NCBI GenBank assembly: GCA_023665865.1
Contig: JAMPDC010000001.1
Span: forward strand, 391,331 to 455,330
Length of the DNA stretch: 64,000 nt
Source: Staphylococcus sp.
Lineage (GTDB): Bacteria; Bacteroidota; Bacteroidia; Bacteroidales; Muribaculaceae
Direction: 5' to 3'
Position 1 is the first letter of the stretch. Each line of letters starts with the position of its first letter. Below the pieces are notes generated by a model that searched no databases, was not told the DNA's origin, and saw only the letters and a list, made by a program, of their open reading frames with translations. The position numbers and the translations under genes are program-made. Below, piece after piece: positions 137 to 8,327 of this stretch.

Positions 137-1591
137 TCATACATTTGCAAGCTGATTGTAGCGTTCCTCGGAAATGCGTCTGACAAGGCGTGCATCCGAT
201 TCAACCCTCCATTCAAAGCCATTGTCGCCGACCATAATCAGACGGTAGACAGTAGCCCCGCTGTTTTCATCGGATTCCGGGCTTACTTGAGAATCAAACC
301 ATGCAACTTGCCCGTCAAACATACCGCCGATCACCTCAAGCTTATCGCCACGCTGGAGTTTGATTGCCCCGACGGGATACAGCTCAGTCTCAGACGTAAA
401 ACTACCGATGGCTCTTTGATAACGCATCAATTCCACATTACTGATGACCGCATAGGGACTCGCAGCAGCACGCGACTGCCGGTAACCCCATGCGAGATCA
501 CCGATGTGTCGGAAAAGTGGTGTCAAATCCGAGACCTTGCATCGGAAAAACAGCAATCCGGGCACCACCGGCTTGTTTTCAAACACGAGTTTGTGCCCGA
601 CCCGACGTGCAATCTCCTCCATCGGATAGAATCTCGTCTCCAACAACTTCTCCACCCCGCAACGTCTCGCACGCTCAATCACGTCGTCAAACGACACATG
701 AGGGCGAAACTGCATGGCATACCACTGCGACGGATTGGCTACCAGTGCGGAAATGACCCTATCCATCACCTCGCGTCTCGCCTCGGGAGTGACATCGGCA
801 GGAATGACAAATGAAAAAACCGGATTGCCATGTGGCACACGCCCCATGCAACCGGCCACAACAGATGGCGCAATTCCGCAATGGAGCGCCACAAATCCCC
901 ACAGAGTCCGCGCCGTTTCGGAGGGAATGGACGAAAGCTTCACCCCCACTCTGCCGAGCGCAAGCGTGAACAGCATCTTAAGATGCTCAGTCATCTGCCT
1001 TGGTGTACGCTCAGACTGGCGGAGCGGGAAAAGGTATTTGTTTCGGGGACGCGAATAGCGGCTCACTATGCTGTCAATGGCCTCGCATCCGCTAATCACT
1101 TCCGGTTTACGATATGCGGCAAGCTCCTCAAAGGTCAAGCCGCCCATATAGATTGAAAACAAGACGAGATCCACGGCCAGTTGCCGGTCTGACTCCGTCG
1201 CCGGATCGCTCGCTACCAACTTACGCAAACGCCCGAAAAGCCCCGTGTCAACCTCATCATGGGAAGAGTCTGCACAATCGCGCAGGCGCGATGCCACGAG
1301 GCTGAAAGCGTCCGACGGTCTAACCAACCCATCGGCCACAGCCTTAGAATATAATCCTGAGAGATTTTTAAGATAATAGGCCACGGTCTTCATGCTATAG
1401 CCCTCGGCTAAAAGCCTTGCGACCCAATCGGCCAGCACAACTTCGTCGAAATCGCGCTCCGTCAGCTCCCCACCCTCTCTGAAACGCAGGTAGGAAGCCA
1501 GCGCCTGACGCTGACTGGCTGCGCTACGCTGATTAGACGTCTCCTCTATTCTGACCCGAAAATATTCAGCTGTCAAGACGGGATTATCCAT
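137..1591 (-). CDS. Fusion: degenerate tyrosine-recombinase-like region + NusG/UpxY-like antiterminator region
   Basis: 484 residues in two parts. Residues about 10-105 resemble a SAM-like core-binding domain and 115-285 the catalytic fold of tyrosine recombinases, but the catalytic residues look lost. The box I Arg position reads MGGLTFEE (149-156), the box II His is Glu225 (Arg228 is kept), the LGH motif reads MGR (249-251), and no Tyr sits near 260. Residues about 288-395 look like the NGN domain of NusG paralogues (QWYAMQF, then FYPMEE and PVVPGLLFF), followed by a KOW-like segment (GDKLEVIGGMFDG, 415-427). UpxY-type NusG paralogues head Bacteroides capsule operons and suppress termination in the leader; the downstream ugd fits that role. 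A roughly 230-nt leader precedes the gene. Its ATG overlaps the TAA of a 46-codon ORF. The domain calls are by eye; loss of recombinase activity is an inference. Confidence 0.75.
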   Translation of the reverse strand: MDNPVLTAEYFRVRIEETSNQRSAASQRQALASYLRFREGGELTERDFDEVVLADWVARLLAEGYSMKTVAYYLKNLSGLYSKAVADGLVRPSDAFSLVASRLRDCADSSHDEVDTGLFGRLRKLVASDPATESDRQLAVDLVLFSIYMGGLTFEELAAYRKPEVISGCEAIDSIVSRYSRPRNKYLFPLRQSERTPRQMTEHLKMLFTLALGRVGVKLSSIPSETARTLWGFVALHCGIAPSVVAGCMGRVPHGNPVFSFVIPADVTPEARREVMDRVISALVANPSQWYAMQFRPHVSFDDVIERARRCGVEKLLETRFYPMEEIARRVGHKLVFENKPVVPGLLFFRCKVSDLTPLFRHIGDLAWGYRQSRAAASPYAVISNVELMRYQRAIGSFTSETELYPVGAIKLQRGDKLEVIGGMFDGQVAWFDSQVSPESDENSGATVYRLIMVGDNGFEWRVESDARLVRRISEERYNQLANV

Positions 1592-1731
1592 TAGCCAATC
1601 AGCAGGTTAGGCAGCTCCAACGAAGTTAATAACTTGAATTTTACAGACATTTCTTCCCGTCCCTCCATCTTGCAGATCATCATGTCGGGCAGACAGAGGT
1701 TTTCAATCGTTATGTCCGTGACAATATACAT
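1591..1731 (-). CDS. Small 46-codon ORF, translationally coupled to the fusion gene
   Basis: This minus-strand ORF starts at ATG 1731-1729 and ends at TAA 1593-1591, which shares one base with the ATG of the fusion gene (TAATG). An AAGGA Shine-Dalgarno-like sequence (1745-1741) lies 9 nt before the ATG, unusually good for this phylum. An alternative in-frame ATG at 1749 would add six codons. The product begins MYIVTDITIENL and ends ELPNLLIG; I recognise no family. The start codon lies in an inverted repeat (1724-1741), so access to it could be regulated. It could be a leader peptide that controls translation of the antiterminator, or a small structural protein. No homologue is known to me. 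Confidence 0.5.
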   Translation of the reverse strand: MYIVTDITIENLCLPDMMICKMEGREEMSVKFKLLTSLELPNLLIG

Positions 1732-1741
1732 GACAGTATAT
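1724..1741. repeat. 6-bp inverted repeat overlapping the small-ORF start
   Basis: ATATAC, six bases, then GTATAT: perfect 6-bp arms. On the minus-strand transcript it would form a small hairpin whose loop and 3' arm contain the AUG of the 46-codon ORF, with the Shine-Dalgarno-like AAGGA just 5' of it. It may be a protein-binding site or a translational control hairpin; both are inferences. Confidence 0.4.
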
Positions 1742-1828
1742 CCTTGCATAAGGCGTAACTACTTAACACTCAACATTTCACTAAGATGTATTAATGTCGC
1801 ATAACAAAGCAGTGACGCATTCACGGCA

Positions 1829-1860
1829 CAAATTTAACTAATAATTTTATCAACCGCAAA
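1829..1860 (-). promoter_or_regulatory. Promoter of the fusion gene / polysaccharide operon
   Basis: On the minus strand the sequence reads TTTG (1860-1857), 20 bp, then TAAATTTG (1836-1829), an exact match to the Bacteroidetes -33/-7 consensus. Transcription would start near 1822 and leave a leader of about 230 nt before the fusion gene. A leader of that size is expected if a NusG-like product acts on the locus's own 5' region. Confidence 0.65.
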
Positions 1861-1874
1861 TCGGACCGTGATTT

Positions 1875-1894
1875 TATTTCACAATATTTCACAA
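1875..1894. repeat. Perfect tandem 10-bp repeat just upstream of the promoter
   Basis: TATTTCACAA occurs twice head to tail (1875-1884 and 1885-1894), and a related CATTTCACTAA lies in the leader near 1775. The pair sits 15 bp upstream of the -33 element of the polysaccharide promoter. A period of one helical turn is typical of side-by-side protein binding. The binder is unknown. Confidence 0.4.
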
Positions 1895-2009
1895 CCCATA
1901 TCACATGCCATCTATTGATGCTGACGACAAAAAAATGAGATCTGACAGTAAAATACAACTCCATTGTCACTTTATCAGAATTACTAAGCCAACAGCAACG
2001 GATTTTAGT

Positions 2010-2017
2010 TAACTTTG
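2010..2017 (+). promoter_or_regulatory. -7 element for the double-GNAT gene
   Basis: TAACTTTG matches TAnnTTTG, 115 bp before the ATG. No clear -33 element was seen. The leader contains a possible hairpin (CTCCC 2069-2073 with GGGAG 2080-2084). Confidence 0.4.
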
Positions 2018-2132
2018 CAGACTGTCAGAAGCAATTATATAACTCTGTAGTGCCAACAAAGAATCTCCCTCCCTATATCGGGAGAGACTCAAATTGCCAT
2101 AATAATATTTATTAAACTGAAAATAAATATAT

Positions 2133-2993
2133 ATGATTGAAATAAAGACCTTGTCAAACGTCGGAAGGGAGAAACTTCTCGACACTTTCCTCGAAGCGTT
2201 TTCAGATTATGCCACCAGTTTCACACGAGAGCAACTTGACTCTATGTTAAGGATACGCGGATTCAATCCGTCGCTGTCGTTTGGAGCATTTGACGGAGAC
2301 CGTCTGGTAGCCTTTGTATTCAACGGAATCGGAAAGCATAGAGACGCTCCGACTGCCTACGATACCGGGACAGGTACAGTGAAAGCCTACAGAGGCCGCG
2401 GACTCGTCACCGAAATCCTCCATCATGGAGAAAACATCCTCCGCGAAAACGGCATCTGCGCCTATATCCTTGAAGTGCTTTGCGACAATGCGCCGGCTAT
2501 AGGCATATATCGTAAAGCCGGCTTCAAAACGGTGCGTCAGTTCGCATGCTATTCAATGGACAAACCGTCAATAACAATGCCTCTAAAATCGACCGCAGGG
2601 ATCAGCTTCACGCCTCTTGATCCTGCTCATCTCAGTGAGTTCAGCGGATTTTGCGACGTCGCTCCGTCATGGCAAAACAGCTTTGATTCAATTTCCCGCG
2701 GAAAAGATGAACTTGAATGTATCAGCGCATGTATCGACGATGAAATAGTTGGCTATGTGGTGATTAATCCTTCGCAAGGTGATCTCATGCAACTTGCCGT
2801 CAGCAAACCCAGCAGACGCAAGGGTATCGGGGCCGCGCTTTTCAACAAAGCAGCCGCAACTGTCACCGCACCACGCTTGAAAGTTATTAACGTAGAGGAC
2901 ACCTGCGACAGCCTTGTCTGCTTTCTCCAAAACCAAGGCATGAAGCTGACAGTAAAGCAATTTGAAATGTCGAAAACCTTTGCCGGCATTTGA
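2133..2993 (+). CDS. Tandem GNAT-family N-acetyltransferase
   Basis: 286 residues with two GNAT folds. The first (about 1-150) carries the acetyl-CoA loop as VKAYRGRGLVTEIL and the typical end ALGIYRKAGF-like stretch (AIGIYRKAGFKTVRQF). The second (about 155-286) carries QLAVSKPSRRKGIGAALF. Acyl-CoA dependent transfer is expected; the substrate is unknown. The gene stands alone between its own promoter and a strong terminator, and faces away from the polysaccharide locus. The start was chosen at the only ATG that precedes the N-terminal GNAT strand. Confidence 0.75.
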   Translation: MIEIKTLSNVGREKLLDTFLEAFSDYATSFTREQLDSMLRIRGFNPSLSFGAFDGDRLVAFVFNGIGKHRDAPTAYDTGTGTVKAYRGRGLVTEILHHGENILRENGICAYILEVLCDNAPAIGIYRKAGFKTVRQFACYSMDKPSITMPLKSTAGISFTPLDPAHLSEFSGFCDVAPSWQNSFDSISRGKDELECISACIDDEIVGYVVINPSQGDLMQLAVSKPSRRKGIGAALFNKAAATVTAPRLKVINVEDTCDSLVCFLQNQGMKLTVKQFEMSKTFAGI

Positions 2994-6864: not shown

Positions 6865-7746
6865 ATGAAAGGAATAGTTTTAGCCGGAGGCTCCGGCACA
6901 CGTCTCTATCCAATCACCAAAGGTGTCAGCAAACAGCTGCTACCCATCTACGATAAACCGATGGTCTACTATCCCATCTCGGCCCTGATGCTGGCAGGAA
7001 TACGTGAGATCCTCATAATCTCAACTCCCCATGACCTGCCCGGCTTCCGTAGATTGCTCGGCGACGGCTCGGATTTCGGTCTGAAACTCGAATATGCCGA
7101 GCAACCATCGCCCGACGGACTGGCCCAGGCTTTCATCATCGGGCGCGAGTTTATCGGAGACGATTCTGTCTGTCTCGTGCTTGGCGACAATATCTTCCAC
7201 GGCGCAGGCTTCTCATCTGTACTGAAAGAATCTGTGAGAACCGTTGTGGAAGACAACAAAGCTGTGGTATTCGGCTATTGGGTCAACGATCCCGAACGTT
7301 ATGGTGTGGCCGAATTCGACAGTGAAGGCAACTGCATTTCAATCAAGGAGAAACCGGTTAATCCTAAATCAAACTATGCCGTGGTCGGACTATACTTCTA
7401 CCCTAACGAAGTGGTCGACATCGCAGCCTCAATCAAACCGTCGGCACGCGGCGAACTCGAAATCACGACTGTCAACCAAACCTTTCTCAACGACAATCGT
7501 CTGAAAGTGCTCACTCTTCCGCAGGGATTTGCGTGGCTCGACACTGGAACTCACGATTCGCTTGCCGAGGCATCAATCTACGTCGAAGTCCTCGAAAAGC
7601 GTCAGGGACTGAAAATCGGCTGTCTCGAAGGGATCGCCTACCGTAATGGCTGGATCAGCAAGGAGAAGATGATTGAACTCGCCCAACCGATGCTCAAGAA
7701 CCAATACGGCCAATATCTCCTCAAAGTCATAGATGAAAAAAGATAG
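6865..7746 (+). CDS. rmlA: Glucose-1-phosphate thymidylyltransferase
   Basis: 293 residues, the usual RmlA length. It joins dTTP and glucose-1-phosphate to make dTDP-glucose, the first step of dTDP-L-rhamnose synthesis. The nucleotide-binding signature GGSGTRLYP is followed by [16 protein letters not shown], and LGDNIFHG is present further on. rmlC follows after 32 bp, but rmlB and rmlD are not in the window. The pathway feeds surface polysaccharide; the ugd-containing locus lies about 6 kb away on the other strand. Confidence 0.95.
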
Positions 7747-7778: not shown

Positions 7779-8327
7779 ATGAATGTTATTCAAACCGATA
7801 TAGAGGGTGTAGTGATCATCGAGCCGCGTGTTTTCACTGATTCCAGGGGATATTTCTTCGAGAGCTATTCCAAAAGGGAATTTGACGAGAAAGTCGGACC
7901 GATCGACTTCGTTCAGGACAACGAGAGTCGTTCGACCCGCGGTGTCATGCGCGGGCTCCATTTCCAACTCCCACCCTACACTCAGGCAAAACTCGTGCGC
8001 TGTGTGGAGGGAGAGGTTCTCGATGTAGCGGTTGACCTGCGCAAAGACTCTCCGACCTACGGGCAACATGTCGCAGTGCGGCTCTCCTCGGAAAATCACC
8101 GTCAGCTCTTCATCCCACGCGGCTTCGCCCACGGTTTCGCCGTCTTGAGCGAGAGCGCCGTGTTTCAATACAAATGCGATAACTTCTATGCCCCTCAGGC
8201 CGACGGCGGTATCTCTATCCTTGACAATAGTCTCGGCATCGACTGGCTGATACCACTGTCCGAAGCGATTCTGTCGGAGAAAGACACCCGCCATCCGCTT
8301 TTCGCAGATTTCTCCTCTCCATTCTGA
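7779..8327 (+). CDS. rmlC: dTDP-4-dehydrorhamnose 3,5-epimerase
   Basis: 182 residues, standard cupin-fold RmlC length. It epimerises C3 and C5 of dTDP-4-keto-6-deoxyglucose. Family motifs are present: FTDSRGYFFESY, then QDNESRSTRGVMRGLHFQ with the active-site His, and PRGFAHGFAVLS. It is co-directional with rmlA (32 bp) and with the lactaldehyde reductase downstream (45 bp), so the three may form one transcript. Confidence 0.95.
   Translation: MNVIQTDIEGVVIIEPRVFTDSRGYFFESYSKREFDEKVGPIDFVQDNESRSTRGVMRGLHFQLPPYTQAKLVRCVEGEVLDVAVDLRKDSPTYGQHVAVRLSSENHRQLFIPRGFAHGFAVLSESAVFQYKCDNFYAPQADGGISILDNSLGIDWLIPLSEAILSEKDTRHPLFADFSSPF

Follow-up and report, generated by a model that had tools for sequence, protein, structure and literature searches.

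A UpxY-like protein carrying a predicted dead tyrosine recombinase at its front, and the leader hairpin that accompanies its gene

Why would a tyrosine recombinase that appears to have lost its active site share one reading frame with a transcription antiterminator? The question is raised by an intact open reading frame of 484 amino acids at positions 137-1591, minus strand, of the window, the whole 64-kb stretch of DNA analyzed here (it begins at base 391331 of a contig of 2.63 Mb). Its product, as delimited by the frame, by comparison with its family and by profile-profile alignment, consists of a recombinase-like half (residues ~8-285; 737-1570, minus strand), with a SAM-like core-binding part and an eroded catalytic part without the beta2-beta3 hairpin, and a UpxY-type half with NGN and KOW domains (residues ~287-472; 176-733, minus strand). 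By analogy with UpxY and LoaP, and with a probability of roughly 0.68, we read the protein as an antiterminator that would load at a hairpin in the leader, with the dead recombinase as a docking or regulatory module. As the fusion is present in many independent assemblies, an artefact of frame calling or assembly was rejected. A gene of mobile elements was rejected as well: none of 34 candidate stretches of viral contigs encodes a relative, and the four plasmid records matched were all integrases, none covering 80% of the query.

The C-terminal half of the window protein matches the NCBIfam antiterm_UpxY model at E 7.6e-10, with 39 bits against a cut-off of 100, and in a profile-profile comparison twelve UpxY-like proteins that stand alone aligned with its residues 279-475 (99.5%, E 3.6e-22). 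The same model (NF033644) is matched at E 0.01 or better by all 28 fusions compared, Pfam NusG at E 0.01 by 8 of the 28, and the NCBIfam LoaP model by 10. The top PDB sequence match, covering NGN and KOW at E 1.2e-6, is the NusG protein 8f5g_A, which we take to be LoaP. Searching the window's own genome (88.75% complete) with the UpxY model yielded the fusion, the housekeeping nusG, identified by its tuf-nusG-ribosomal-protein setting, and a third match at E 0.065.

For the N-terminal half, the Pfam model Phage_int_SAM_5 matches residues 8-92 (E 6e-4, 20.5 bits against a cut-off of 22.3) and is found at E 0.01 in 12 of the 28 fusions, and a PDB sequence search matched Cre in this half at E 1.3e-4. 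Between window residues 18 and 261, a profile of the 28 fusions aligned with ten active tyrosine recombinases from Bacteroidales (99.4%, E 5e-21), and this match, together with that of the UpxY side, bears out the first-pass annotation in its claim that a recombinase-like and a UpxY-like half are joined. The same annotation held that the active site is lost with only Arg228 kept, and a residue-by-residue comparison of the window protein confirmed this: the box I arginine is replaced by glycine, the lysine hairpin is absent, the histidine of ARH is threonine, the histidine of GH is arginine, the tyrosine is serine, and the arginine of ARH (R228) is the sole residue kept. This position is arginine in only 6 of the 28 fusions and is therefore no family feature. 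Across the family, the first catalytic arginine is kept in 3 fusions, the lysine in none, the second arginine in 6, the histidine of ARH in none, the histidine of GH in 4 and the tyrosine in none, and no fusion keeps more than two of the five residues of the catalytic set (Arg I, Lys, Arg II, His, Tyr), which is complete in all ten stand-alone recombinases compared. A tryptophan neighboring the catalytic site is present in 28 of 28 fusions, and the beta2-beta3 hairpin is absent in 27. The computed net charge of the recombinase half ranges from 11 to 28 in the ten recombinases and from -8 to 10 in the 28 fusions, with no overlap. Much of the catalytic part is gone in L058 and L060, and all of it in L063. 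By homology and by the loss of these residues, the N-terminal half is predicted to be a catalytically dead tyrosine recombinase. A separate observation concerns PDB chain 9i5v_14 (401 aa, named RaiA), whose residues 3-180 match the recombinase-like half; either a ribosome hibernation factor carries a recombinase-like domain in this case too, or the chain is mislabelled, and a literature search on it gave nothing.

A search for proteins with both domains and a tabulation of the genes next to them, as the first-pass annotation had suggested, revealed a conserved family that is mostly followed by polysaccharide genes. The fusion is present in 31 of 198 genomes of the same family (probably Muribaculaceae), 29 of which hold 37 copies that cover both halves, while the other two have a match in two pieces. 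In a scan of 393 genomes of the order, a few of which belong to the family and in each of which up to four candidates were scored, none of the matches listed outside the family joins both halves; those matches are recombinases or UpxY. The relatives were reduced to 45 non-redundant loci, with L054 and L057 left out as no fusion frame was found in them; simple reading frame calling over-extends some starts, and the start of the fusion is unsure in several loci. In a tree of 65 C-terminal halves, the 28 fusions fall on one side of a branch (91/91; 92% of bootstrap trees), which is consistent with a single fusion event, a plausible origin judging by these sequences.

A stand-alone recombinase lies directly before a stand-alone UpxY gene on the same strand in L084, L107, L119, L121, L122, L123 and L124, and this order is a plausible ancestral arrangement of the fusion. 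It is a minority arrangement, seen in 1 of 16 UpxY loci in one set and in 4 of 18 loci of the family in another, and L123 and L124 were fetched for having a recombinase beside UpxY and hence are no random sample. We infer that an invertase gene adjoining upxY was the most likely source of the recombinase half. The Bacteroidales tyrosine-type DNA invertases resemble the fusions in the homology of the N-terminal half, and they sit directly before some upxY genes; compared with them, the aligned fusions lack the arm domain, the catalytic tyrosine and lysine, and the strong positive charge. To our knowledge, NusG paralogues are small two-domain proteins. One branch of them would here have taken a whole eroded DNA invertase aboard, in a setting where invertases and UpxY act side by side.

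The genomic position of the window copy differs from that of most relatives. The window fusion points leftwards out of the window, and a convergent 285-aa gene lies ~450 bp past its stop codon, followed by a 233-aa gene and then mutS; on the upstream side there is a divergent acetyltransferase-like gene at 2133-2993. Reading through the list of open reading frames gave no polysaccharide cluster in the 64-kb window. The only candidates were rmlA (6865-7746, plus strand) and rmlC (7779-8327, plus strand), situated behind the fusion on the other strand, and since the fusion points away from them, a polysaccharide locus in the window was rejected. Behind the fusions of L100 and L103 lies an rmlA with 83-87% identity to the window rmlA, so the rml genes of the window may once have belonged with such a locus. 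Among the relatives, the claim that the fusion stands at the head of a polysaccharide locus fared better: it failed for the window copy, which is followed by a convergent gene, and it held for most others, as polysaccharide genes lie downstream of the fusion in 37 of 42 informative loci, judged by reading the first downstream genes. The exceptions are the window, L102, L058, L060 and L104, and L034, L045 and L047 end too soon to be counted among the 42. In L040 and L053, a spurious reading frame on the opposite strand had hidden the downstream operon in the gene table.

Pfam assignments of the neighbors agree with this picture. Among 135 second-to-fifth genes, the commonest families are flippases, epimerases and glycosyltransferases (the leading ones with 13, 11 and 8 proteins), with sugar-nucleotide enzymes also among the commonest. 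The 41 first genes include nucleotidyl transferases and export proteins (four each) and gidB (three), the last of these behind the fusions of L058, L060 and L104. Upstream genes, of which 75 were tallied after 5 of 80 frames had been left out as likely spurious, are mixed, with two integrases, and polysaccharide families are not the commonest among them. L058, L060 and L104 form a subgroup of short fusions (407-420 aa) without nearby polysaccharide genes or a match to the leader element described below; gyrase-B-like genes lie upstream of the fusion in L058 and L060.

The window copy is thus an orphan member, with its frame and its leader kept and no operon behind it. It could be a relic that lost its function along with its operon, a reading that we regard as somewhat unlikely. 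A convergent neighbor and the absence of an operon, a partner gene, an inverton and a second leader element are what such a relic would show. On the other hand, the 484-aa frame is intact, the leader has the fifth-highest score among all loci (the model used was, however, trained on it), and a monocistronic, trans-acting NusG paralogue is reported in E. coli RfaH (PMC7593976).

The leader contains the element that we call R1, a hairpin, CCTCTGTC/GATGGAGG, with a conserved purine-rich tail at 1644-1702 (minus strand), which ends 52 nt before the start codon and was defined by a covariance model and by covariation. The model was built from 14 leaders, two of them (L042, L091) picked by eye and 12 taken from a script that demanded a stem, so that covariation within the training leaders is biased; the window leader, itself one of the 14, scores 43.9 bits (E 1e-10). 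R1 was found at the 5' end of the fusion on the same strand in 31 of 45 loci, window included, and no match was found in the other 14. Seventeen of the 31 lie outside the training set, 13 of them at E 0.15 or better and four at 0.62-1.7, and elsewhere in the 1.01 Mb of loci there are five matches, all at E 0.78 or worse. From the end of R1 to the earliest possible in-frame start there are mostly 22-62 nt; relative to the reading frames as called, R1 lies inside the frame in L035, L037, L063, L094 and L095 and across the start in L039, L040 and L091. A search of Rfam with window positions 1560-2140 gave no match at E 1. Further upstream, at 1829-1860 (minus strand), a putative promoter TTTG-N20-TAAATTTG was picked out by eye as resembling the Bacteroidales consensus. 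A reading frame of 46 codons (1591-1731, minus strand) runs across the leader hairpin and closes with TAATG, where it overlaps the fusion start codon; it was rejected as a conserved feature, its frame being interrupted in the three relatives read.

R1 marks fusion genes and was not convincingly found before the stand-alone UpxY genes examined. Across L105-L124 (20 loci), no R1 was detected at a UpxY leader. Another 20 loci, L070-L089, lie outside or at the edge of the family, and 16 of them have UpxY; they gave five matches (E 0.0067-0.27), four of them not before UpxY, with the best (E 0.0067) behind its UpxY gene; the one leader-like match, before UpxY in L089, is weak (E 0.1). At E 0.005 or better, the 198 whole genomes gave 28 matches, 17 of which lie just upstream of fusions, one at L142 and ten elsewhere, five of these ten being a dispersed repeat in two genomes. 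That repeat (L143-L147; G033 and G103, of one genus) is a hairpin that resembles R1 by sequence. At L142:6000-6052 (minus strand), R1 scores 30.5 bits and heads a polysaccharide operon with no fusion or UpxY gene in the stretch read, which may reflect either a lost gene or a target in trans. In the window's own genome (88.75% complete), the window leader is the sole match below E 0.01; the next two (E 0.012 and 0.047) have unrelated genes around them and are not followed by a polysaccharide operon, and trans targets in this genome were rejected on that basis, three of the seven matches with E above 0.4 having been looked at.

Several measures bear on whether R1 is a structured RNA. In 14 non-training leaders, which had been fitted to the R1 model, 94% of cells are paired and the covariation score is 0.466, compared with 0.262 +/- 0.037 for shuffles and 0.045-0.199 for slides. 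The number of pairs changed on both sides (5 versus 4.0) is not unusual in these leaders, with 166 of 500 shuffles as high, and neither are the further pair types in the training leaders (150 of 500 shuffles). Wobble (G-U) pairs make up ~18-19% of R1, about one in five, which points to RNA or a displaced strand, probably a single-strand structure, rather than to a duplex palindrome. The folding of seven leaders is modestly better than that of shuffles (z -1.4 to -3.6), and L036 folds otherwise.

Two known systems suggest what the hairpin may do. UpxY proteins reportedly keep transcription from ending prematurely in the leaders that precede upxY (PMC7819879), and LoaP is reported to need a leader RNA hairpin of the UNCG type (PMC12691694). 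By analogy with these, we infer antitermination and hairpin loading for the fusion. In most relatives the fusion gene comes first in a polysaccharide operon. During transcription of the leader by RNA polymerase, the hairpin with its tail would recruit the fusion protein through the NGN-KOW half, and the recruited protein would ride with the polymerase and allow read-through of the long operon. The N-terminal half would then be a regulatory or protein-docking module and not an enzyme or a general DNA-binding tether; such a module is the role we favor, followed by that of a mere structural remnant. Like LoaP, the fusion is a NusG paralogue with a conserved leader hairpin; it differs in that LoaP has no fused domain and uses a UNCG-type hairpin (PMC12691694), which R1 is not, and in that binding of the fusion to R1 is putative. 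If this reading is correct, R1 offers a specific means by which a UpxY-type factor could locate its operon. Alternatively, the hairpin might control the translation or stability of the fusion mRNA and have no part in loading, which we think unlikely. Its place shortly before the first in-frame start, its purine-rich tail and its presence even before the orphan window copy would suit such a role, but the polysaccharide operon headed by R1 without a fusion (L142) and a near-constant distance to the right inverted repeat, as described next, suggest a transcriptional feature.

UpxY, UpxZ and invertible promoters are already known from capsule loci (PMC12632263), UpxY and invertase genes have been reported near invertons (PMC11892184), and Muribaculaceae (S24-7) genomes have been reported with UpxY capsule loci (PMC4936053). 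Upstream of the fusion, inverted repeats 137-241 bp apart were found in 13 of 41 loci, compared with 7 of 558 controls from the same loci, indicating an invertible promoter in front of about a third of the relatives' fusions. Twelve of the 13 share a core like ATCTCTTnnnAAGAGAT, some copies being imperfect, and where a TANNTTTG motif lies within 15 bp of a repeat, it is directed towards the gene in six loci and the opposite way in four. L035 and L037 carry one 215-bp segment in opposite orientations. Between the end of the right repeat and the hairpin there are 67-72 nt in nine of the 13 loci and 60, 63, 64 and 96 nt in the others. No inverted repeats of 14 or more flank the promoter region of the window, and the window genome has one TCTCTTNNNAAGAGA core site only. 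Inverted repeats were found just as commonly before the stand-alone UpxY operons of the family (15 of 16, 13 of these with a CTCTT-N3-AAGAG core), so that they are a property of the loci and not of the fusion; invertons as a feature specific to fusions were rejected accordingly.

These repeats bear on the proposal of the first-pass annotation that the dead recombinase half is a DNA tether, binding a specific duplex site in its own locus and thereby delivering the antiterminator. The SAM-like core-binding part is kept even in the shortest member, L063, 12 of 41 loci have the palindromic repeats upstream, mostly at a near-fixed distance to the hairpin, and the rows of R161, R178, R183, K185 and R272 hold a basic residue in 69-81% of the members having them, all of which would suit a tether. 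The proposal nevertheless did not survive well, and we now judge it quite unlikely: the positive charge is lost, the beta2-beta3 hairpin is gone in 27 of 28 fusions and the lysine in all 28, L058, L060 and L063 have lost much or all of the catalytic part, the leader hairpin tracks the fusion, the window copy lacks such repeats and heads no operon, and similar repeats precede unfused UpxY operons, where the fused domain is thus not needed. That the N-terminal half modulates promoter inversion, pairing with an invertase or occupying its sites so as to lock the promoter, is very improbable, as 28 of 41 upstream regions have no inverton by the test used, unfused UpxY operons have invertons without the domain, the window genome has a single core site and the charge is lost, in spite of the enrichment of inverted repeats, the segment inverted between L035 and L037 and the active recombinases directly upstream of the fusion in L034 and L047. 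As a long shot, the dead half could read the phase switch, sensing or holding the invertase or a ATCTCTTnnnAAGAGAT-type site while the NGN-KOW half loads ~70 nt further on; if true, this would couple promoter orientation and antitermination in one protein.

On the reading that we prefer, an antiterminator with a docking or regulatory module, the fusion is best compared with UpxY of Bacteroides capsule loci. Both have the NGN-KOW half and, in most relatives of the window copy, the first place in a polysaccharide operon, with promoters flanked by inverted repeats in some loci and often a small helper gene directly behind. The difference is that UpxY stands alone (169-366 aa in the loci called) and no convincing R1 hairpin was found before those of its genes examined, whereas the fusion adds a dead recombinase of ~280 aa in front. 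The first-pass annotation knew of no description of such a protein; in the limited collection of literature searched, no description of the fusion, the leader hairpin or the partner family was found, in agreement with it.

The partner family brings a new gene family into the position that UpxZ, an inhibitor encoded behind upxY, occupies elsewhere. Nine of the 41 first genes behind fusions form this family (A6, 174-312 aa); in a leave-one-out test, six seeds gave E 3e-17 to 1e-31. Among the 198 genomes, 25 contain a match, 30 matches in all. Judged by position, 10 of the matches stand behind a fusion and 17 behind a stand-alone UpxY, and one, broken, lies behind the UpxY of L122, with 2 of the 30 outside this count of positions. 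The partner family therefore occupies the UpxZ slot behind fused or stand-alone UpxY. Pfam gave no match for 8 of 10 first genes tested, six of the ten being members of the partner family, and for A6 there was no PDB match and only E 0.08 and 0.12 in NCBIfam. Unlike UpxZ, A6 was not matched by the Pfam model PF06603 at E 1 or better in any of ten genomes, where the control also scored only below the cut-off, and the assignment of the partner as Pfam UpxZ was rejected with that limit. No partner gene was found in the window genome (88.75% complete).

Two loci are of note in their own right. L122 contains a 293-aa recombinase with its catalytic residues kept ~300 bp before a stand-alone UpxY gene, with inverted repeats upstream of UpxY and the broken partner gene behind it. 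The fusion relatives at L102:280-2433 and L103:7947-9821, 717 and 624 aa as called, carry similarly worded repeated inserts in the linkers that separate the conserved blocks; they look as though the frame had taken in a dispersed DNA repeat.
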